64,000 nt of DNA. Origin: Puniceicoccaceae bacterium (GTDB taxonomy: Bacteria; Verrucomicrobiota; Verrucomicrobiia; Opitutales; Coraliomargaritaceae). Shown here in pieces: positions 12,519-43,998 of the stretch. The stretch is taken from positions 62,001 to 126,000 of the forward strand of contig CACIKF010000003.1 in the NCBI GenBank assembly GCA_902587165.1. The letters are read 5' to 3'. Every line of letters begins with the position of its first letter. Position 1 is the stretch's first letter. Made by a program: the position numbers and the translations under genes. A model generated the notes under the pieces. The model was not told the DNA's origin. It searched no databases and saw only the letters and a list, made by a program, of their open reading frames with translations.

Positions 12519-15500
12519 TCACAAGTAAACGATCAGATACGGATCACTTGCTAAAGCTGCCACCAAGTCTACCTTCTTTACAATAAGACCTCCAGTGCGA
12601 TATGGATTCGCTTCACGCCCAGCTAGTAAACTCTGCCCAGCGCATTCAACTAACTCAGGCCCAGAGCTATTCTTTGAGAGCTGATATTTTATCTCGACGG
12701 GCTTCCCGCACAACTCCCAATTAAGAACAATCCCATTTAGTTCTAAAGCTAAAACCGGATCAAAAATCCATGAATCCCTATTTTCACGTAAGCCAAAAAA
12801 ATGACGGATCACCAGGCCGAAATACAAGCCCGGACCACTTGAATATAACCGCCAACCTCCCTTAACATTGATAGATCCATCTTTGAGCTTATCAAAATTC
12901 TCCGCGGCATCAGCACGGTCGAGGAAGGCCGCATCAGAGCTACTAAAATACATGTTGCTTTGGCGCATCTCTGCATTTGGAACTGTCTTTTCGAGGCCGA
13001 TCGGGCAAATCGTCATAAGCGCCTTTAAAAAGCCATCACCCTCACCCATCTTTGCTAGTGCCTCTGCATATCGGATGTGCGCGTGCACATACTGAAGGCC
13101 GATTTCACGGCCAAAATTAGCTGCGGATTCTGCGCGTTTAAAGAATGTTTCTATACCCCCGCAATACGCTGCTGGCTTATCCATTAAACGTACACCGTCA
13201 GGGTATTTCAGATTACTTGCGATGCGCTCCATCTGATCATCTGCCTCCTCGCGAGTTAGCAGTCCAGCAATGACCGAGCGTGTCATTGGTATCAAACGAT
13301 TCTTTATACCAGTGCGAGTATCATTGGAGTGCAGCAGCGGTTCGACGATTTCTAGTGCCTCATCATAAAGTAAAAATCCAGCTACTTGCCCATCGATCAA
13401 AACATGACGGCGAAAGTCAATCCGCACACGCTCTGAGAGCGTAACAATCCGCCTCTTCAAATCCGAATTGGTCAGCAATGAACCTAGTTCTTCCAGCGAT
13501 TGCGCCAGTAGTGCGACCGTCCAACCACTGACCATACGATTAGCTAGCCCAGAATTCACTGGTTGCAAGGAATCATTCCAATCGCCCCCACCATACCGGA
13601 TAAGTGCCGTCCCCGCAATAAACTCATGTTCGATACGGTCGAGCGCCTTCAAAATGTGATCCGAAACTGTTCCCTGCTCTGCAGCAGGCTTATTTTTAGC
13701 CGTTAAATAAGGTAGCTTCTCGGTGAGTATTGCGAGATCTCCGGTTGTTTGTAAATAAAGCGCAAGAGCCTTTAATGGCCACACCACGATGTCACCATGG
13801 GAATGATTTTGCGCGATATCAGAATATTCGTCATGCATGAACCACTGTGGCCAGTCACCAGTCTCCACATATTGACTACCGAATGTCTTCAGCAAAATGC
13901 TACGCGCCAGACTGTGATGTTGTTGCGCGATAAAATATTCAAACGGCCCCTGGCAAGCATCACGCGTGCCCCATGCGGCCCCAGAATGCTGCTCCAATCC
14001 ATGTGGCGAGGCATAATGAATCAACGCATTGTGCGAATACCAACGCAGCGCATCACTCAAGCGCGACACAGACTCCACATCACTCGAGCAATCAAAGCGA
14101 CGATTAAAATCAGTCCAGTAATCCGAATCTACAGCAGTCCTCTGAGCCTTCAACTTGTCCACCACACTGGCCCTACCTAGCAACGAAGCAAGAATCGTCA
14201 ATTCTATCGATTGCGTCGCCGCCGTCTGCAAAACCAGCATCCCATCGCCCCCTGCTGCGCCGAGCAGTTCAGAACCGCCCACCTTCGCGACATGCGTGTT
14301 CTCAGTCCAACTCACCCCAAAGGCAAGATCCAAACTACGTTCTTTCGGCAAAACGTTCGAACAATCCGCAATCGTTAGCAAGCAGTCCGATTCATGAATC
14401 TCCAATGCCGCATTTGAATCCGTTTCCGTAGCCCCCATCACGAGCTCATTACTCACGAGGAAACAGCGTTTTGCTCCTGTGGTGCTAGCACTGATCGTAA
14501 AAGCGTCACGCCCACTATCAAGCGCTACACGCACAGTGATCGTCTCCTGATCCAATACGTAGACCCAACGACACGCATCGCGTGTCATCTCGAAAACCGA
14601 GGGTGTGCCGAGGACTTGCCAGCCATCCTCCGTTTCAAAGTAGATGCGCACTCCAGATACTCGTGACAAACCCAGAGGCTCACGTGGCAATGAGTTCATC
14701 TTATGAAAGGAGGTATTCCCATAGACCGTTTGCGCAGAGAACACGCCACACATATGCACCGTAGTCGCCAACACCTCACGTATCGAATCGGTGCCCGCAT
14801 CGCCAACAATAATAGTACCGTGTGGGCGCTCAATAATCGCCTCCTTAGCACGGGTCACTACGTGTTTGTCGGTATCGCAAAAGAAACTCATCACAATACC
14901 CTGACGGTTCTCAACGTGACGCCATTTCGATGGAAACAAAGCTTGCAGCTCCGGCTGACTCAAGTCGCGACCGTGCACAGGCTCGGACTGAGCAATTTGA
15001 TTTAAAGCAGGTAAAGACTGAACCTCTAGCGAGTCACAAATAGACTGCCCTGAAAGCGCATGCATGCCCTTCAGCAAACTCAGATCTGCGGCCGAAGATG
15101 CCTCTGGATGATCCGCCACATATGCCGCAGCAAAACTGAATTGTGCAGATTGCTTCGCAACCAATTCAACTGGCTTCGCCTGCAAGGCCGCACAACTAAA
15201 CTCGTATTGATAACAACAATTCGCGAGACTCTCTTGCTCTAATCCAGAAGCGCCCTCCCCGCAACGGTAACCGTTGCCATACACATCAAATGCATCGGTC
15301 GCATAACTTGCGGCACCTGTTAGACAAACAGCCATCATCCATGGATTCTTACCTGCTTGCTGTAAATTCTGACGAAAGCTCAAGACTGGTCCATAGGTAG
15401 CATCCTGAATGACTGACTCATCCAAATAATGCGCCGTGTAAGCCTCATTACTCAACAATGCCCCACGAGACGCCAGCCCGACATCTTGAACCCAGACCGT

Positions 15501-15896
15501 ATCGATACGAACAGGCTCAGCTGACTGATTGACCGCCGAAACATCCCACAATAAAGTCGCGGCCTCGACATCGACCCGCAGCGATAAAGTAATCGCACAA
15601 CCAGCCACATCACCCACCCACTGAGCGAGATTCTCTTTACACGCAAAACCCGATAGGCTCGTAAACGTCCCCAAGAGCGGGTGCAGCTTGATTGCATCAC
15701 CAATATGCACGCGAAAAAACATGCGCCCTAGGCCCCCTTCAAGTGGGTTGCCTAAAGTTCGGCTGAGTAGAATATCACCCGCCGAAGCAGATGAGACCTG
15801 ACCGTTGCGATTGAGTTGTACACAAAATCGATCTACATCTCCTAGAGTATACTCATATCCTGCATGAGTTGAAAGTAGAAGTTTTTGAATTAACAT
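12519..15896 (-). CDS. GH94 phosphorylase, probable 1,2-beta-oligoglucan phosphorylase
   Basis: Large GH94-type protein with no signal peptide, so cytoplasmic. It has an N-terminal beta-sandwich region (HAGYEYTLGDVDRFCVQLN; GNPLEGGLGRMFFRVH) and a C-terminal (alpha/alpha)6 domain. The general-acid block is GGGDWNDSLQPVN, with its first Asp at ~772 counted from the chosen start. WGTRDACQGPFEYF marks the entry of the catalytic domain. The length of ~1,125 residues matches 1,2-beta-oligoglucan phosphorylases rather than the ~800-residue cellobiose or cellodextrin enzymes. The reaction would release glucose 1-phosphate from sophoro-oligosaccharides. I chose ATG 15896 (MLIQKLLLSTHAG); an in-frame ATG 17 codons upstream (15947) is possible. 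The gene is followed after 26 bases by a sulfatase. Specificity is inferred from size, motifs and the GH144 neighbour. Confidence 0.78.
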   Translation of the reverse strand: MLIQKLLLSTHAGYEYTLGDVDRFCVQLNRNGQVSSASAGDILLSRTLGNPLEGGLGRMFFRVHIGDAIKLHPLLGTFTSLSGFACKENLAQWVGDVAGCAITLSLRVDVEAATLLWDVSAVNQSAEPVRIDTVWVQDVGLASRGALLSNEAYTAHYLDESVIQDATYGPVLSFRQNLQQAGKNPWMMAVCLTGAASYATDAFDVYGNGYRCGEGASGLEQESLANCCYQYEFSCAALQAKPVELVAKQSAQFSFAAAYVADHPEASSAADLSLLKGMHALSGQSICDSLEVQSLPALNQIAQSEPVHGRDLSQPELQALFPSKWRHVENRQGIVMSFFCDTDKHVVTRAKEAIIERPHGTIIVGDAGTDSIREVLATTVHMCGVFSAQTVYGNTSFHKMNSLPREPLGLSRVSGVRIYFETEDGWQVLGTPSVFEMTRDACRWVYVLDQETITVRVALDSGRDAFTISASTTGAKRCFLVSNELVMGATETDSNAALEIHESDCLLTIADCSNVLPKERSLDLAFGVSWTENTHVAKVGGSELLGAAGGDGMLVLQTAATQSIELTILASLLGRASVVDKLKAQRTAVDSDYWTDFNRRFDCSSDVESVSRLSDALRWYSHNALIHYASPHGLEQHSGAAWGTRDACQGPFEYFIAQQHHSLARSILLKTFGSQYVETGDWPQWFMHDEYSDIAQNHSHGDIVVWPLKALALYLQTTGDLAILTEKLPYLTAKNKPAAEQGTVSDHILKALDRIEHEFIAGTALIRYGGGDWNDSLQPVNSGLANRMVSGWTVALLAQSLEELGSLLTNSDLKRRIVTLSERVRIDFRRHVLIDGQVAGFLLYDEALEIVEPLLHSNDTRTGIKNRLIPMTRSVIAGLLTREEADDQMERIASNLKYPDGVRLMDKPAAYCGGIETFFKRAESAANFGREIGLQYVHAHIRYAEALAKMGEGDGFLKALMTICPIGLEKTVPNAEMRQSNMYFSSSDAAFLDRADAAENFDKLKDGSINVKGGWRLYSSGPGLYFGLVIRHFFGLRENRDSWIFDPVLALELNGIVLNWELCGKPVEIKYQLSKNSSGPELVECAGQSLLAGREANPYRTGGLIVKKVDLVAALASDPYLIVYL

Positions 15897-16079
15897 GGCT
15901 CTAAAATGTAATATTTGAATTGCGAGTAAAGTTCTTGTCTTAAACATTCTGAATTACACTTATCAACTCACCCTAGAACGAGCGCATGCCGTTGATCCCA
16001 CAGATTAAAAACCGCAGGCAAATCAACGCGCTGCCGATAATCAGGAGAAGAATATTTCACCGACTGAACCAGAAAAGCA

Positions 16080-22112: not shown

Positions 22113-22922
22113 CTACGTTTTAGCAAGCGAGTTCCCCTCAAGCAGCATCGCAATCTTTACGCGAAGCGATTGCACCATAGCTTCTTTGTTAGTCGGATTT
22201 TCGGCAATACAGTTAACAATGGCACTGCCGACGACGACCCCATCGGCCGCTTGGGAGACAGTGCGAACGTGGTCAGCCTTGGAGATGCCAAAGCCAACCA
22301 CAACTGGCATCTCAGTGTGTTGTTTGATTTGAGAAACGTTGCTTGCAATGCTGTCTGACATAGAAGTTTGTTCTCCAGTCACTCCCTCGCGGGAGACGTA
22401 GTAGACGAAGCCAGTCGTTGCTTTGCAGATAATTTCTAACCGGCTTTCCGGTGTGGTAGGTGCTACAATGAAGACGGTCTTGAGGTCATACTTCGCGCAG
22501 GCTTCAAGGTGCTCGTACGCTTCTTCCGGTGGTAAATCGAGCGTGAGAATACCGTCGAGACCAGCGGATTTAGCTTCAGCTACGTAAGTATCACTACCCT
22601 TTGAAAAAACTAGGTTATAATAGGTGTAGAAAACTAGAGGCACTTCGCTGAAATCACGAATAGCGCGAACGAGTTTAAGTAGGCTCTTGCTGGTGCTGCC
22701 GCTTTCTAGTGCGCGTTGGGCTGCGAGCTGATTGGTCAGACCATCAGCCAGGGGATCAGAAAACGGCACCCCGATCTCTAGCACGTCAACACCTGATTCA
22801 ATTACAGCACGACAAGCTTCAACCGAGCTATCAAAGTCAGGGTCACCTGCGCAGAGGTAGCCGACAAAGACGGCACGCTTTTCGTCGCGAGCTTTTGTAA
22901 AGGCCTTTTCGATTCGATTCAT
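22113..22922 (-). CDS. trpA: Tryptophan synthase alpha subunit
   Basis: Cleaves indole-3-glycerol phosphate to indole and glyceraldehyde 3-phosphate; indole is normally channelled to the beta subunit. The 269-residue product shows the alpha-subunit blocks: VGYLCAGDPDFDSS, VLEIGVPFSDPLADG (catalytic Glu and Asp), VPLVFYTYYNLVFSKG, ILTLDLPPEEAYE, FIVAPTTPESR, GFVYYVSREGVTGEQ and VGFGISKADHV. No trpB or other trp gene lies next to it, so it is split from the rest of the pathway. It lies 97 bases downstream of the diadenylate cyclase gene on the same strand, so partial co-transcription is possible. Confidence 0.95.
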   Translation of the reverse strand: MNRIEKAFTKARDEKRAVFVGYLCAGDPDFDSSVEACRAVIESGVDVLEIGVPFSDPLADGLTNQLAAQRALESGSTSKSLLKLVRAIRDFSEVPLVFYTYYNLVFSKGSDTYVAEAKSAGLDGILTLDLPPEEAYEHLEACAKYDLKTVFIVAPTTPESRLEIICKATTGFVYYVSREGVTGEQTSMSDSIASNVSQIKQHTEMPVVVGFGISKADHVRTVSQAADGVVVGSAIVNCIAENPTNKEAMVQSLRVKIAMLLEGNSLAKT

Positions 22923-23019: not shown

Positions 23020-24378
23020 CTAACTATTGCGAATGAGCGCTTTTTCGATTAGAGGCAGCATTTTTCCGCGACGGAAGAGCGTTACTTGACCAGTGCTACC
23101 GGAAACGACGATGCAAAGACAATCGACTGCTTGCGTGATGGACGCAGCAGCAGCGTGGCGGCTACCGTAACCGCTGGGCAAATCGTGCGTATAATCGGGA
23201 GCATGAATGAGTGAGCCTGCGGAAACGAGTACACCATCCCCTCGGATAATGAACGCGCCATCGATCGAAGAGAGTTCCTTAACCGTCTCATCCATGAAGG
23301 GATTGAGGATATTACGGTCCTCATCTTTATATCCATAAAATGGATTCAAAATGAGTGGCTTCGTAAATTCCGAAATGAGCTCAGAATTACCGAGTGTAAA
23401 AAGGCAGCCAACAGGGTAACCTTCGCGACCTTCGACAGCTAGTTCGGTGGCGATAGCGAGCACACGCTCGATCACTTCGGGTTTCACGCTAACAGGCAGC
23501 ATGTCGGACTTACTAGCAAGCGTAGTATCGAACTCGCGCTCAACGTCGACCACAGTAATACTATCGAACTGGTTGCTCTGTGGGAGACCCCCAATGCAAC
23601 ACAAGCGATCTGTACTGGAAAAAATTCCCCGAGTGAGGCCTATCAATACAGCACTGCGCAACTGCGAGAATCGATGGTTGCTATACGCCCGAATCGGGAT
23701 AACGGCATCAATTTCTTCACGCTCAGCCACAGCATCCGAAGTGCCGTGAGCGATGAGTACCGTCTTGAACGCGTTAAAGGTTTTGCCTACTTCGACTCCC
23801 CCTCCGAAGGTATCAGCAAAAACAAGCACCGAGGTACACTGAGCCCCTTTGGCAATCTTAGCGGCTTCGCGCAAGATCAGATTATTAAAACGGTTGTGAC
23901 GACGGCGCGGCTTATTCTCTTCGCCCGCGAAGACTTGCTTCAGTTCTTTGCGGAAGTCTGTAATCTTAGTGGCGGCACGGAGCCGATCCATATGACCATT
24001 GTCTTGGAAAACTCGCGCAAGAGAAGCGAGACTGAAGAGGTAGTTACGCGCATTCTTTGACGCGAGAAGCAGAAAAATGAAGCGTATATCTTCGTACTCA
24101 GGCTGGCCATCGTAAACAAGACCCTTAGGGCAGCGCCCAACAGCGACCATGTATGGACGCTTCATCTTGATACGGGCATGAGGTAAGCAAACACCATTAC
24201 CTAGGTAGGTCGTCATTTGCTTCTCACGATCTAGCAGATCCGCTAGTAAACCCTTTTTAGTGATGCCGCGCTCTTTGGTGACGTCGCAGACAGATAACAA
24301 TTCCGATACCGCACTCTCAAAATCCGTGCTTTCTATGTCAATAACGCGGGATTTGGCGATGTATCGATCTATGCGCAT
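23020..24378 (-). CDS. Three-domain EIIA-like / PK-C-like / diadenylate cyclase protein
   Basis: A 452-residue protein without signal or membrane segments. Residues ~1-150 resemble the PTS EIIA domain of the fructose/nitrogen type, with a possible phospho-acceptor His67 in VCLPHARIK and a TKITDFRKEL end. Residues ~165-285 look like the pyruvate kinase C-terminal-like alpha/beta domain (EAAKIAKGAQCTSVLVFADT; KTVLIAHG). Residues ~295-450 are a DisA_N-type diadenylate cyclase domain: EGREGYPVGCLFTLGN, the DGA motif at 373-375 and GSRHAAAASIT at 406-416, where the usual RHR reads Arg407-His-Ala409. Its expected product is c-di-AMP. PK-C plus cyclase is the DacZ/CdaZ layout known from archaea; the extra EIIA-like domain could tie synthesis to PTS phosphorylation. 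It starts 10 bases after nuoA. Confidence 0.82.
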   Translation of the reverse strand: MRIDRYIAKSRVIDIESTDFESAVSELLSVCDVTKERGITKKGLLADLLDREKQMTTYLGNGVCLPHARIKMKRPYMVAVGRCPKGLVYDGQPEYEDIRFIFLLLASKNARNYLFSLASLARVFQDNGHMDRLRAATKITDFRKELKQVFAGEENKPRRRHNRFNNLILREAAKIAKGAQCTSVLVFADTFGGGVEVGKTFNAFKTVLIAHGTSDAVAEREEIDAVIPIRAYSNHRFSQLRSAVLIGLTRGIFSSTDRLCCIGGLPQSNQFDSITVVDVEREFDTTLASKSDMLPVSVKPEVIERVLAIATELAVEGREGYPVGCLFTLGNSELISEFTKPLILNPFYGYKDEDRNILNPFMDETVKELSSIDGAFIIRGDGVLVSAGSLIHAPDYTHDLPSGYGSRHAAAASITQAVDCLCIVVSGSTGQVTLFRRGKMLPLIEKALIRNS

Positions 24379-24388
24379 TTTTTAAAGA

Positions 24389-24763
24389 TCACTGATCCCA
24401 TTCGATTGCGCCCTTTTTTAACTCATAGAAGAGACCGAGTATGAGGACGAAGAGGAAGAAGAATACCGGCATGATAATGGGTAGATTTGCCGCCAGAAAT
24501 TCACGAAAAACCATGACCCAAGGTATCAAAAAGACGACCTCGATATCAAAAAGGATAAACAGCATCGCGGTGACGTAAAATTTAACCGCGAAGCGGGCGT
24601 GCCCCGAACCCTCAGCCAGCATCCCGCATTCGTAAGGTGTATTCTTAATCTCAGTATCCTGACCACGTTGTCCGAAAATATGCGACGCAACAAGAACAAC
24701 GACACCAACACTGGCTGCGATTAAGATTTGAACAAGAATCGGATAGTAGTCCGCGATTTGCAT
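24389..24763 (-). CDS. nuoA: NADH-quinone oxidoreductase subunit A
   Basis: Small membrane subunit of respiratory complex I. The 124-residue product has three hydrophobic segments (ILIAASVGVVVLVASHIFG; VTAMLFILFDIEVVFLIPWVMVF; LPIIMPVFFFLFVLILGLFYE) and the diagnostic loop YECGMLAEGSGHARFAVKFY followed by FDIEVVFL, matching the NuoA/ND3 family. Length is normal. No other nuo genes lie within the window, so it is detached from the usual nuoA-N operon. Instead it is followed after 10 bases by the diadenylate cyclase gene and preceded, 83 bases upstream, by the DUF362-like gene. Confidence 0.94.
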   Translation of the reverse strand: MQIADYYPILVQILIAASVGVVVLVASHIFGQRGQDTEIKNTPYECGMLAEGSGHARFAVKFYVTAMLFILFDIEVVFLIPWVMVFREFLAANLPIIMPVFFFLFVLILGLFYELKKGAIEWDQ

Positions 24764-38352: not shown

Positions 38353-41300
38353 ATGCCCTCGAAAAAAGAATACATCCATCTTCGCGGCGTTCGCCAAAAT
38401 AACCTCAAAGGCTTCGACCTCAACCTGCCCATTGGCGAACTCACCGTCGTCACAGGCCTTAGTGGTGCAGGTAAATCGTCACTGGTATTCGAGACACTTC
38501 ATGCTGAAGGTCAGCGCCGCTATGTTGAAACCTTCTCGTCCTACACCCGCCAGTTCATGGATTTACTCGACCGCCCAAAAGTTGACAGCGTGGAGAACAT
38601 TCGTCCCTCCATCGCTATCCAGCAATCCAATACGGTCAAAACCTCTCGCTCCACTGTAGGCACCATCACCGAACTGGCCGATTATTTTAAGGTCTGGTTT
38701 GCTAATGCTGCAACCCTCTATGATCCAGCCTCCGGCGCAGTCATCACCGACGACAGCCCGCAATCAGCATGGAGGAAACTCACCGACAATCACAAAGGGC
38801 AACCAGCTCTCGTTACCTTTCCCATCACAAAGCCAGAAAATTTAAGCTGGGAAGAAATCCTGAAACCACTCAGTGGCCAGGGCTACACCCGCGTCTTATT
38901 ACCTAAGGATAAAGGTGGGGGTGAATACAAGATGATGCGTATTGATGAGCTGGTATCCGCTGACTCCTCGCTCCTCACAAATCACTACTCACTACTGATC
39001 GTGCAGGATCGCATCGCGAGCTTGAGCGAAAAATCTCGCTCCCGGTTCATCGAAGCTGCGCAACAAGCCTTTCATTTTGGCAAAGGTCGTATTCAGATAA
39101 TCGATACAAATATAAAGCTGGTCGCAGGCTTTACTCACGGGCTCAGCTCTCCAATCACAGGCCAAAGCTTCCGCTCTGCCGCTCCAGCGCTCTTCTCCTT
39201 TAACTCCCCCCTTGGCGCCTGTTCCGAATGTAGAGGCTTCGGGCGTGTCGTTGAGATCGACGACCGCCTGGTCATACCCGACCACAGCCTTTCGGTCGAC
39301 GAGGGCGCCATCCGCGCCTTCCAAGGCGAGGTCTACAGCGAAAGTCTTCGCGACCTCCAACGAGCCGCCAAAAAGCATAAGGTTCGCACCAACATCGCAT
39401 GGTCGAAGCTCAAGAAAAAAGAGCTTCAATTCATCATGGAGGGCGAACCGAAATATAAAGATAACTGTGGTCAATGGTATGGCGTCCGTCGCTTCTTCGA
39501 TTGGCTCAATCGCAATCTCTACAAAATGCACGTCCGCGTGTTTCTTTCGAAATTCCGCAGCTACAACCTATGCCCAGAATGCAAGGGCGCTCGTCTTAAA
39601 GCAGATTCTCTCAACTGGAAATGGCAAGGACACACGCTGCCCGAGCTTTACCAAAAAAGTGTGAGTGACTTATTAGAACTCCTGTCTACCCACTCAGCAC
39701 TCACCAGTTCTAAAAAAAGCCAGCTAGATACAGACACGGCTTTAAATGGCATTATGACCAGGTTGACATTTTTGAGAGATGTGGGCCTTGGCTACCTCAC
39801 ACTCGACCGCAGTTCTCGTAGCCTCTCTGGCGGTGAGACTATGCGGGTGAATCTCACCTCCTGCCTGGGCTCCTCACTCGTCGATACGCTCTTCGTCCTC
39901 GACGAACCATCCGTCGGTCTGCACCCGCGAGACATGGATCGCCTTATTTCCATACTACACCGACTGACGAGCCTAGGTAACACCGTTGTCGTGGTCGAAC
40001 ACGATGAAGCGATCATGCGCGAAGCCGACCATCTCATCGAGATTGGTCCCCGTCCAGGTAGAAGTGGGGGCGAGCTAAGCTTTGGCGGTACTTACAAACA
40101 TATTCTAAAATCCAATACGCACACCGGGCGCTACCTCTCCGGTCGCGAAACCATCGACGCACCCGATAGTCGCCGAGACACCATTGAAAGCCCCCAACTA
40201 TCAATCTACAATGCGAGCAAGCACAACCTCAACGAACTGACTGTTCACATCCCGCAACAATGCTTTGTCTGCCTGAGTGGGGTTTCCGGCTCTGGCAAAA
40301 GTACGCTGCTCAACAACGTAATCTACCAAAATCTACTGTCGCAAAAAGGCCTCATCGTCGAAGAGCCCGCATCAATCAAAGACATAGAGTCGACTTTGCC
40401 GCTCTCTGATGTCGTTCTGATTGACCAAACTCCCGTCAGCAAAACTCCCCGCTCTAACCCTGCGAGCTACAGCAAGGCTTGGGATGAGATTCGAAAGCTA
40501 TTCGCCAAAATTGAGAGCGCCCAATCCGCTGGCATGGGACCAGGACATTTTTCGTTTAATAGCGGTGATGGACGCTGCCCTACTTGCTCTGGCTTAGGTT
40601 TTGAACGCATCGAAATGCAGTTCGTCTCCGATCTCTTCGTCCCCTGCGAAAGCTGCGAAGGACAGCGCTTCAAAGACGAAGTCCTCCAAATTGAGTTTAA
40701 CGGCAAAAGCATCGCCGATATCCTAGAACTCGACATTGCCGAGGCAGTATTTTTTTTCGGCGATGATCCCCATTCGACAAGCTCAGCGCGTGCTAAAATT
40801 GTCCGCTGCCTCCAGCCACTAGTCGAGGTCGGCCTAGGCTACCTGAAGCTCGGTCAGCCTCTTAACACCCTCTCAGGGGGTGAATCCCAACGCCTAAAAC
40901 TTGTCCGTTATCTAGGTAAGATCAAAAACTACCCTTCTGCCAAAGAAGGGCTGACTAGCTCGCCCAGTCAGAGTGGTGACGGCTCACACGCACTCATTCT
41001 CGTCGACGAGCCCACTACCGGTCTGCATCGAGCCGATGTTAAACGACTCATAGGCGTCCTCCAAGGACTGGTTGATGCCGGCAACTCTCTCATCGTGATC
41101 GAGCACAATCTCGATATTCTTAAAGTCGCCGACTGGATCGTGGAATTAGGCCCCGAAGCTGGTTCCGCTGGCGGACAAATCATCGCCGAAGGCACTCCCG
41201 AGCAAATCATCGAAGTTGAGTGCGAAACCGCCGACTACTTGAGCGAAGCAATCAGCGAAAATTCCATGTCCACTAAACTAGCCGCCGAAGATCTTGTCGC

Positions 41301-43998
41301 CTACAATCAACAATCAAGGAACAAGGTTTTACGCATCAAGGGCGCCCGACAGCATAATCTTAAAAATATCTCCTGCGAGATCGCGCACAACAAAACCACG
41401 GTCATCACCGGCGTCTCTGGGTCAGGTAAATCCACCCTCGCTTTTGACATCGTTTTTGCCGAGGGCCAACGCCGCTTCATGGAATCAATGTCCGCCTACG
41501 CGCGTCAATTCGTCGAACAAATGTCTCGTGCTGAAGTCGACGAGGTTCACGGCATCGCCCCCACTGTCGCAATTGAACAACGTGTCACCAAAGGCACTCG
41601 CAAGTCTACTGTCGCTACCATCACTGAGGTCGCCCAATACCTACGCTTGCTCTACGCACGCATCGGCATCCAGCATTCCCCCGCAACCGGCGAGGCTGTC
41701 GTCAGCCAAAGCGAAGTAAGCCTCCAGAAACGCCTAAGAAGCTTACTCGCCGATTCTAAGTTAAAGACTCTCTACCTCTGCGCGCCACTCATTCGTGGGC
41801 GTAAAGGTCACCACGAACCAATCGCAAATTGGGCGCGGGACCATGGCTATTCTATGCTGCGCATTGACGGTCAAGTCGTCCACCTCGACGACTTTAAAAA
41901 ATTAGACCGCTACGTTGAGCACGACATCGATCTGGTCATAAGTAAACTCACTGCTCATCAACCACCAAGCACCACTTATCAAAGCCTCAATGAGGCCTTG
42001 AGATTAGGCAAAGGCAGCGCCTTCCTTATGTCGTCCAAAGGGGAAACTATTTCTCGCCTCTCGACCAAGCGCACCGACCCGACTACAGGCGAAGCTTTCC
42101 CTGAGCTAGACCCAAAGCACTTCTCGTGGAACAGTCCGCGCGGCTGGTGTACCTCATGTCGCGGCTATGGCCAACTCTTTGACTGGATGTCTGCCGAAGC
42201 TCGCGAAGAGCCTGCGACAGGGACGAAAACTTCCTTCGATCACCTCGACGACCTTGAAGACGGTGACACCTGTCCCGACTGTTGTGGCAAGCGGCTAAAT
42301 GCGCTTAGCAGTGCCGTCAAGTTACCACTCAAATCAAGAATCAAAGATTACGAATTAGGACTTGGTGAGAACGTTTCACTACCTGAACTTTTAAAACTCA
42401 CGCCCTCACAGTTGCTCTTGGTTCTCAAGAACCTTAAGACAAACAAACGCTCAAAGCCGGTCCTCGACGAACTCCTTCCCGAGATCGAAGAGCGCATGCG
42501 CTTCATGGATCGTGTCGGGCTCAACTACCTCAGCCTCGATCGTGCCACCGCTACACTTTCCGGGGGTGAAGCTCAACGCATCCGTCTAGCCGCGCAACTC
42601 GGATCAAACTTATCAGGCGTGCTCTACGTCCTCGACGAGCCGTCCATTGGTCTGCACGCACGGGACAATGCGAAGCTCCTAGAATCCCTCGATCAATTAC
42701 GTAAACGAGGTAATACCCTTGTCATCGTTGAGCACAACGAGGCCACCATGCGAAGGGCTGACCAAATTCTCGACCTAGGCCCCGCCGCCGGTGTTCATGG
42801 CGGTGAGATCGTAGCCAAAGGTAGTCTGTCAAAAATTAAGAAAAGCAAGCGTTCCCTCACTGCGCAGTATTTACGAAAGCAAATGCAGCACCCACTTCGC
42901 GGTGAGCACCGCACGCTGCCCACCAAATGGAGCCCGCGAAAAAAGAACAGTAAGGAGCAATGGATTACACTTCAAGGTGCCGCCCTACGGAATCTTAAAA
43001 GCTTCGATCTACAAATCCCAAAGCAGCGTCTCAACGTCGTCTGTGGTGTATCCGGCGCAGGAAAAAGTACTCTGATTCGCGACTTATTAAAGCCATTAGT
43101 TAATGCTGCCATCGAAACCAAATCAGCAAAACTGACTGCCCAATCAAAGCCCCTCACTGCATCGGATTGTTTCAAGTCTCTTCAAGGCGCAGACACAATT
43201 CGCAAATTGATCGAGGTCGACCAATCTCCTATTGGCAAAACCCCGCGCTCCACCCCTGCAACCTATATCGGTGCCTTCGAGATTATAAGGGACATTTTTG
43301 CCAAGCTACCCGAGGCTAACATGCGCGGCTACAAGCCTAGCACTTTCTCTTTTAATACCAAGGGCGGGCGCTGCGAAAATTGCAAAGGTGCTGGTCGCGT
43401 GAAATTAGAAATGAACTTCATGCCCGACGCCTACGTGACTTGCGAGGACTGTAACGGTAGCCGCTATGGCGCCGAACTCGACGAGCTGCGCTGGCATGGC
43501 AAGAGCATCGCCGACGTTCTACAAATGAGCTTCGAAGAGGCGGCAAAGTTCTTTAGTTTTCACACCCAACTGAGTAAACTCATGGAATTGATGGTAGAGA
43601 CAGGACTTGGCTACATCAAGCTAGGACAATACTCGCCCACCCTCTCCGGCGGTGAAGCCCAACGTCTTAAACTCGTGAGCGAGCTAGCCAAAGGTATGCC
43701 CACCTTCAAAGAACGCCAATACAACAAAGGCCAAGGCAATCTCTACATCCTCGAAGAGCCCACCATCGGCCTCCATCTAGCAGACGTCGAGCGCTTGATC
43801 GAGCTTCTCCATTGCCTTGTGGACAAGGGCCACACCGTGATTGTGATCGAGCACCACCTCGAAGTGATCAAGGATGCCGACTACCTAATCGAGATCGGCC
43901 CCAAGGGTGGTGAAGCCGGCGGTGAGCTTCTATATCAAGGCAAAGTGGGTGGACTCAAAAATGCGAAAGGCAGTGTGACGGCAGATTACATCTTCTAG
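38353..43998 (+). CDS. uvrA: Double-length UvrA: two excinuclease A units fused in one protein
   Basis: An 1,881-residue protein, about twice the ~940 residues of normal UvrA, the DNA-damage sensor of nucleotide excision repair. It holds four ABC ATPase sites. Walker A motifs lie near residues 35 (GLSGAGKSS), 643 (GVSGSGKST), 1020 (GVSGSGKST) and 1565 (GVSGAGKST). Each is paired with LSGGE and a Walker B (VLDEPSVGL, LVDEPTTGL, VLDEPSIGL, ILEEPTIGL; the last has Glu for Asp). CxxC zinc pairs of UvrA occur in both halves (CSECRGFG/CPECKGAR; CPTCSGLG/CESCEGQR; CTSCRGYG/CPDCCGKR; CENCKGAG/CEDCNGSR). The halves are diverged, so the fusion is old. UvrA normally works as a dimer, so this may be a covalent dimer. 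No separate uvrA is visible in the window. Confidence 0.92.
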   Translation: MPSKKEYIHLRGVRQNNLKGFDLNLPIGELTVVTGLSGAGKSSLVFETLHAEGQRRYVETFSSYTRQFMDLLDRPKVDSVENIRPSIAIQQSNTVKTSRSTVGTITELADYFKVWFANAATLYDPASGAVITDDSPQSAWRKLTDNHKGQPALVTFPITKPENLSWEEILKPLSGQGYTRVLLPKDKGGGEYKMMRIDELVSADSSLLTNHYSLLIVQDRIASLSEKSRSRFIEAAQQAFHFGKGRIQIIDTNIKLVAGFTHGLSSPITGQSFRSAAPALFSFNSPLGACSECRGFGRVVEIDDRLVIPDHSLSVDEGAIRAFQGEVYSESLRDLQRAAKKHKVRTNIAWSKLKKKELQFIMEGEPKYKDNCGQWYGVRRFFDWLNRNLYKMHVRVFLSKFRSYNLCPECKGARLKADSLNWKWQGHTLPELYQKSVSDLLELLSTHSALTSSKKSQLDTDTALNGIMTRLTFLRDVGLGYLTLDRSSRSLSGGETMRVNLTSCLGSSLVDTLFVLDEPSVGLHPRDMDRLISILHRLTSLGNTVVVVEHDEAIMREADHLIEIGPRPGRSGGELSFGGTYKHILKSNTHTGRYLSGRETIDAPDSRRDTIESPQLSIYNASKHNLNELTVHIPQQCFVCLSGVSGSGKSTLLNNVIYQNLLSQKGLIVEEPASIKDIESTLPLSDVVLIDQTPVSKTPRSNPASYSKAWDEIRKLFAKIESAQSAGMGPGHFSFNSGDGRCPTCSGLGFERIEMQFVSDLFVPCESCEGQRFKDEVLQIEFNGKSIADILELDIAEAVFFFGDDPHSTSSARAKIVRCLQPLVEVGLGYLKLGQPLNTLSGGESQRLKLVRYLGKIKNYPSAKEGLTSSPSQSGDGSHALILVDEPTTGLHRADVKRLIGVLQGLVDAGNSLIVIEHNLDILKVADWIVELGPEAGSAGGQIIAEGTPEQIIEVECETADYLSEAISENSMSTKLAAEDLVAYNQQSRNKVLRIKGARQHNLKNISCEIAHNKTTVITGVSGSGKSTLAFDIVFAEGQRRFMESMSAYARQFVEQMSRAEVDEVHGIAPTVAIEQRVTKGTRKSTVATITEVAQYLRLLYARIGIQHSPATGEAVVSQSEVSLQKRLRSLLADSKLKTLYLCAPLIRGRKGHHEPIANWARDHGYSMLRIDGQVVHLDDFKKLDRYVEHDIDLVISKLTAHQPPSTTYQSLNEALRLGKGSAFLMSSKGETISRLSTKRTDPTTGEAFPELDPKHFSWNSPRGWCTSCRGYGQLFDWMSAEAREEPATGTKTSFDHLDDLEDGDTCPDCCGKRLNALSSAVKLPLKSRIKDYELGLGENVSLPELLKLTPSQLLLVLKNLKTNKRSKPVLDELLPEIEERMRFMDRVGLNYLSLDRATATLSGGEAQRIRLAAQLGSNLSGVLYVLDEPSIGLHARDNAKLLESLDQLRKRGNTLVIVEHNEATMRRADQILDLGPAAGVHGGEIVAKGSLSKIKKSKRSLTAQYLRKQMQHPLRGEHRTLPTKWSPRKKNSKEQWITLQGAALRNLKSFDLQIPKQRLNVVCGVSGAGKSTLIRDLLKPLVNAAIETKSAKLTAQSKPLTASDCFKSLQGADTIRKLIEVDQSPIGKTPRSTPATYIGAFEIIRDIFAKLPEANMRGYKPSTFSFNTKGGRCENCKGAGRVKLEMNFMPDAYVTCEDCNGSRYGAELDELRWHGKSIADVLQMSFEEAAKFFSFHTQLSKLMELMVETGLGYIKLGQYSPTLSGGEAQRLKLVSELAKGMPTFKERQYNKGQGNLYILEEPTIGLHLADVERLIELLHCLVDKGHTVIVIEHHLEVIKDADYLIEIGPKGGEAGGELLYQGKVGGLKNAKGSVTADYIF

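Follow-up and report, generated by a model that had tools for sequence, protein, structure and literature searches.

A putative DacD-class diadenylate cyclase fused to an EIIA domain in Verrucomicrobiota, and a candidate route from the PTS to c-di-AMP

To our knowledge, the signals that set diadenylate cyclases are poorly known, and the locus described here raises the question of whether the PTS could provide one of them. A putative input (phosphate from the PTS), a candidate phospho-site (His67) and the output (c-di-AMP) come together on one predicted soluble chain of 452 residues, and EI and HPr are encoded in the same genome. The gene and its domains are placed as follows in the window, that is, the whole 64-kb stretch of DNA that was analysed:

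23020..24378, minus strand: EIIA-DacZ_P-DAC fusion, putative DacD-class diadenylate cyclase, 452 aa
23935..24300, minus strand: PTS_EIIA_2 domain (PF00359), residues 27-148, Pfam E 3.3e-21
23524..23895, minus strand: DacZ_P domain (PF21755), pyruvate-kinase C-domain-like, residues 162-285, Pfam E 8.3e-19
23059..23439, minus strand: DAC (PF02457), diadenylate cyclase domain, residues 314-440, Pfam E 3.1e-19

A first-pass annotation had given exactly these limits for the gene and left its strand unstated; the plus-strand frame across 23020-24378 is interrupted by stops and the open frame is the one on the minus strand. All three Pfam domains score above their gathering scores, the EIIA domain with 76.2 bits against 27, so that a significant EIIA match indeed lies within the first 150 residues, where that annotation had asked for one. 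The NCBIfam DacZ model matches residues 215-441 with an E value of 2.2e-29, but with 102.6 bits against an equivalog cut-off of 430; judged by its sequence, the fusion is a relative of DacZ and not DacZ itself. At the N-terminus the PtsN equivalog reaches 33.8 bits against a cut-off of 138.7, and further NCBIfam EIIA models match this part with scores below their cut-offs. The label that Pfam gives to DacZ_P is 'probable sensor domain'. A defence role was considered and set aside, PADLOC returning no match for the fusion protein. No c-di-AMP riboswitch was detected near the gene, the Rfam search of the 64-kb window yielding one tRNA only.

The predicted structure agrees with this division. Alignment A1 (26 rows, 50-96% identity) was the input for a full-length AlphaFold model, which was only of middling quality (pLDDT 70.7, pTM 0.50), and for this reason the packing of the domains is not readable from it. 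The modelled N-terminal part is closest in fold to EIIA-Ntr (1a6j; Z 19.1, rmsd 2.4, 145 aligned residues), with the mannitol EIIA (1a3a) scoring below it (Z 14.3). Modelled residues 286-445 superpose on the DAC structure 2fb5 (Z 15.1, rmsd 2.7, 135 aligned residues), and the modelled DAC part matches DisA (9y4s) with a Z of 14.7. The middle domain was modelled separately because the search with the full-length model barely covered it; taken alone (pLDDT 78.7), its best 50 Foldseek matches were all pyruvate kinases (top E 4.8e-6, TM 0.59 by query). The three predicted folds match those of EIIA-Ntr, the pyruvate-kinase C domain and CdaA/DisA, and the earlier reading of the protein as an EIIA, a PK-C-like domain and a DacZ-like cyclase is supported by Pfam and by these folds alike.

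The distribution of the fusion across Verrucomicrobiota, which the first-pass annotation had put forward as a check, was followed with the A1 profile in 288 genomes, 43 of them from the window's own order. The full-length fusion occurs in 41 of the 43 (the exceptions being G146 and G102), several of them single-contig, which rules out a chimeric or mis-called gene. The same three-part architecture is present in four genomes outside the order (G004, G035, G159 and G247), with the fusion domains confirmed by Pfam in G159 and G035. In trees of the EIIA part and of the DAC part the 41 order fusions form a single clade (99/99 and 100/99, respectively), to which the four outside fusions are neither joined nor clearly parted from it in either tree. 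Related proteins lacking the N-terminal part also exist: a second copy in G172, DacZ_P and DAC without EIIA by Pfam, adjoins a DUF2254 membrane protein (L120:6750-9027), a related protein of G114 shows no EIIA, and neither does one of G245, but the frame of the latter reaches the end of its contig. A single-protein scan of named genomes gave 38 Verrucomicrobiota-type loci, although L023 bears the label of a Pseudomonadales bin; a further locus, from a Spirochaetaceae genome, was matched in the EIIA part only.

The residues on which the reading of the protein turns are the following:

24178..24180, minus strand: codon of His67, candidate phospho-acceptor (LPHAR)
24040..24042, minus strand: codon of Tyr113, at the position of the second His of sugar EIIAs, placed by HMMER alignment
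23254..23262, minus strand: DGA motif, residues 373-375
23152..23166, minus strand: GSRHA motif, residues 405-409

His67 and the two cyclase motifs had been pointed out beforehand; they are present, and His67, Arg69, D373-G374-A375 and G405-S406-R407-H408-A409 are invariant in the 26 rows of A1. Among the order fusions, one per genome, D373, G374, G405, R407, H408, G317 and R318 are found in 41/41 and A375 in 36/41, and position 67 is His in 39 and Ser in two (G149 and G175). His67 is kept as well in the four fusions outside the order, whose EIIA parts are only 24-26% identical to that of the window protein, and in all 38 named loci (L001-L038), a set that overlaps the searched genomes. According to passages in PMC13104625, the second His of sugar EIIAs takes part in the transfer to EIIB and in PtsN faces away. 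This position is Tyr in 41/41 order genomes, as expected of an end acceptor, and Leu, Leu, Phe and His in the four outside fusions. The fused EIIA looks like a terminal phospho-acceptor, as far as its residues tell. A role in sugar transport was rejected, since the second His is absent and hardly any EIIB (PF02302) accompanies the fusion (see below).

The two Ser67 fusions, which belong to one genus, carry Cys in place of Arg69 and have intact DGA and GxRH motifs (L125:5997-7373 and L136), so that the EIIA can persist without its phospho-acceptor His; both genomes encode in addition a separate EIIA of 161 residues that retains its own His. Such cases would fit an EIIA that acts as a protein-binding or structural module next to a cyclase not controlled by phosphorylation. 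We consider this unlikely given that His67 is otherwise retained, even in the outside fusions despite their low EIIA identity, and that HPr accompanies the fusion in all 41 fusion genomes of the order. The branch leading to the Ser67 genus is long both in the EIIA tree (2.19) and in the DAC tree (1.07), so the trees do not clearly point to selection having relaxed on the EIIA in particular.

Could phosphate reach His67? EI is present in all 43 order genomes. HPr is encoded by 42 of them, including the 41 with the fusion; G146 is the exception. The own genome encodes one EI of 586 residues with a GGKTSH motif, which scores below both the PtsI and the PtsP equivalog cut-offs and whose EI profile match begins at residue 12, leaving it without a PtsP-type GAF domain; a loosened form of the EI phospho-site pattern was found in 11 of the 12 loci examined (not in L082). 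Its one HPr contains the motifs GIHARPA and KSIMG, and the His15 and Ser46 motifs are seen in 31/31 loci, namely this copy and the 30 best-scoring matches. EIIB (PF02302) was found in five of the 43 order genomes (G010, G039, G045, G048 and G131) and EIIA-Man in none; EIIB PF02302 is also absent from the own genome, where absences are weak because the genome is only 79% complete. EIIA_2 domains occur in 43/43. The fused EIIA is the only one in seven of the 41 fusion genomes (G000, G128, G158, G204, G210, G223 and G228), that is, the own genome at 79% completeness and six others that are 97-98% complete. The remaining 34 carry other EIIA_2 domains, which would compete for the phosphate of HPr, and this counts against control of the cyclase by the PTS. 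The two order genomes without the fusion show that EI has other uses, as G102 retains EI, HPr and a free EIIA with no DAC, and G146 retains EI with neither DAC nor HPr. Gating by the PTS, as first proposed for this protein, has good support from its context (the phospho-sites of EI and HPr, His67, the near absence of EIIB and a cyclase that is usually the only one); the nitrogen-PTS variant of the proposal is doubtful, for the nearest fold is EIIA-Ntr, yet an EI of this length, matched by the profile almost from its start, could not accommodate a PtsP-type GAF domain.

On the output side, 39/41 fusion genomes encode the DAC domain (PF02457) once; G172 and G223 have two copies, and G146 and G102 have none. 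A 7TMR-HDED (PgpH-type) protein is encoded by the own genome, as a frame of 834 residues, and by 34/41 fusion genomes; it is also present in G146, and is absent from G102 and from the other seven fusion genomes. PgpH-type 7TMR-HDED proteins are c-di-AMP phosphodiesterases. At the position of the (V/I)SEE motif described for CdaA in passages of PMC7288161, the window protein reads VSGS and its relatives mostly VSSS or VSAS. This lack of conservation, together with the low score against the DacZ equivalog, could mean that the DAC domain yields little or no c-di-AMP, or a different product, but we regard this as very improbable: the M. pneumoniae cyclase departs from the motif too (it reads SET), the seven cyclase-domain residues listed above are invariant in 41/41 fusions, and the domain is in nearly all these genomes the sole DAC, in most of them alongside the 7TMR-HDED protein.

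The fusion is flanked on its own strand by two genes:

24389..24763, minus strand: nuoA (Oxidored_q4), directly upstream, 10-base gap, same strand as the fusion
22113..22922, minus strand: trpA, directly downstream, same strand as the fusion

The position of nuoA directly upstream, on the same strand and within about 180 bases, is kept in 40/41 order genomes (not in G204), and trpA is found downstream only among near relatives. The adjacency of nuoA and the cyclase (window 23020-24763) may tie complex I to c-di-AMP. Elsewhere in the window, 38353-43998 (plus strand) is a frame of 1881 residues with repeated ABC, UvrA_inter and UvrA_DNA-bind domains that looks like a tandem UvrA, and 12519-15947 (minus strand) encodes a SOGP/GH94-type glycoside phosphorylase of 1142 residues.

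EIIA domains were also seen on other proteins. In G159, outside the order, an EIIA-tagged cluster (L115:7277-14719) comprises a Zn-ribbon protein, the cyclase and an amino-acid permease, plus an extra EI; the genes follow one another as pntA/pntB-like, Zn-ribbon with EIIA, rlmN-like, the fusion, the extra EI (oppositely oriented) and the permease with a C-terminal EIIA, the pntA/pntB-like and rlmN-like frames being identified by eye. G108, which belongs to the same genus as the window, encodes away from the fusion a Na/H exchanger of 745 residues with TrkA_N and a C-terminal EIIA (L124:5274-7511), which recalls the control of the antiporter YcgO by PtsN. Frames of about 750 residues with EIIA that resemble this exchanger occur in G001, G039, G048, G146 and G172. 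The tagging of several regulators and transporters with EIIA is thus a habit of these bacteria.

Taken together, the protein is probably a soluble and usually the sole diadenylate cyclase, in which a mainly regulatory PTS delivers its phosphate to the EIIA as end acceptor and phosphorylation of His67 tunes c-di-AMP synthesis. EI would take phosphate from PEP and hand it on to His15 of HPr, which in turn would phosphorylate His67 of the fused EIIA. This would reposition EIIA and the PK_C-like domain relative to the DAC domain or the partner subunit, and the new arrangement would turn synthesis by the DAC dimer up or down. DACs act as face-to-face dimers. The PK_C-like domain may supply the cyclase with a second, metabolite input. 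In this scenario the carbon and energy state (PEP to pyruvate, Ser46 state of HPr) would set c-di-AMP and thereby potassium and osmotic balance. We infer the phosphotransfer, the gating, its sign and the potassium output, the last of these because the literature ties PtsN and c-di-AMP each to potassium. The parts of that literature drawn on here have c-di-AMP controlling K+ in many bacteria, and passages in PMC13104625 have PtsN acting on the K+ proteins TrkA, YcgO and KdpD, in E. coli by binding; the form that binds K+ targets is unphosphorylated in E. coli and two rhizobia, and phosphorylated in P. putida.

The PtsN precedent could also be read as two outputs on one chain, with the EIIA binding other targets (much as PtsN does with TrkA, KdpD and YcgO) and an independent cyclase set by the PK_C-like domain, for whose predicted pyruvate-kinase C fold a regulatory role was suggested in a 2019 paper (passages in PMC6741144). 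We find this quite improbable, for DacZ_P-DAC proteins free of EIIA do exist (the second copy of G172, G114), yet the EIIA has been kept in 41/41 order fusions, and a merely linked pair would presumably have split more easily.

If His67 phosphorylation does tune the cyclase, this would help to explain why EI and HPr are retained in bacteria mostly without EIIB (PF02302), and it would bring together two systems that are both associated with the control of potassium. A wider proposition, to which we give slightly less than even credence, is that a PTS largely free of transport sets the entire c-di-AMP supply across the order. Its EI and HPr would persist chiefly to phosphorylate regulator-fused EIIAs, the cyclase first, a cation antiporter and an amino-acid permease being likewise tagged in some Verrucomicrobiota, and the PEP/pyruvate state would in this way be hard-wired directly to a second messenger.

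Although the first-pass annotation knew of no description of such a regulated cyclase, the protein class had been described. The legend of Figure A1 in PMC6741144 lists proteins of Lacunisphaera limnophila, Coraliomargarita, Puniceicoccaceae, Verrucomicrobia and Opitutae as class DacD, and the passages of that paper considered here credit the DAC classes to Corrigan & Gruendling 2013 and Commichau 2018 and name neither a domain nor a regulator for DacD. Compared by lineage, the fusion comes from the groups listed and is the DAC of those genomes; since the genomes of the order that carry it almost never encode another DAC, we infer that DacD must be this fusion family. The EIIA domain is presumably the defining feature of DacD, and it is reportedly noted in the 2013 review by Corrigan & Gruendling or in 'All DACs in a row' (Galperin 2023). 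Control of a diadenylate cyclase by the PTS was not found in the literature searched (titles and abstract openings, mostly without subscription papers). The class being known, it is the genome-wide wiring that looks new.

With the PK_C-type archaeal cyclases DacZ/DacY (CdaZ) the fusion shares the PK_C-like middle domain and the DAC domain, and differs from them in its additional N-terminal EIIA and in a score far below the DacZ equivalog cut-off. EIIA-Ntr (PtsN) and the nitrogen PTS are alike in fold, in the likely role of end acceptor and in the potassium theme of the literature, whereas here the EIIA is fused to a cyclase, misses the PtsN cut-off and is accompanied by an EI without a GAF domain. 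CdaA, CdaM and DisA have in common with it the DAC fold and the DGA and GxRH motifs, but the fusion shows no detectable membrane or DNA-binding part and carries VSGS in place of (V/I)SEE.
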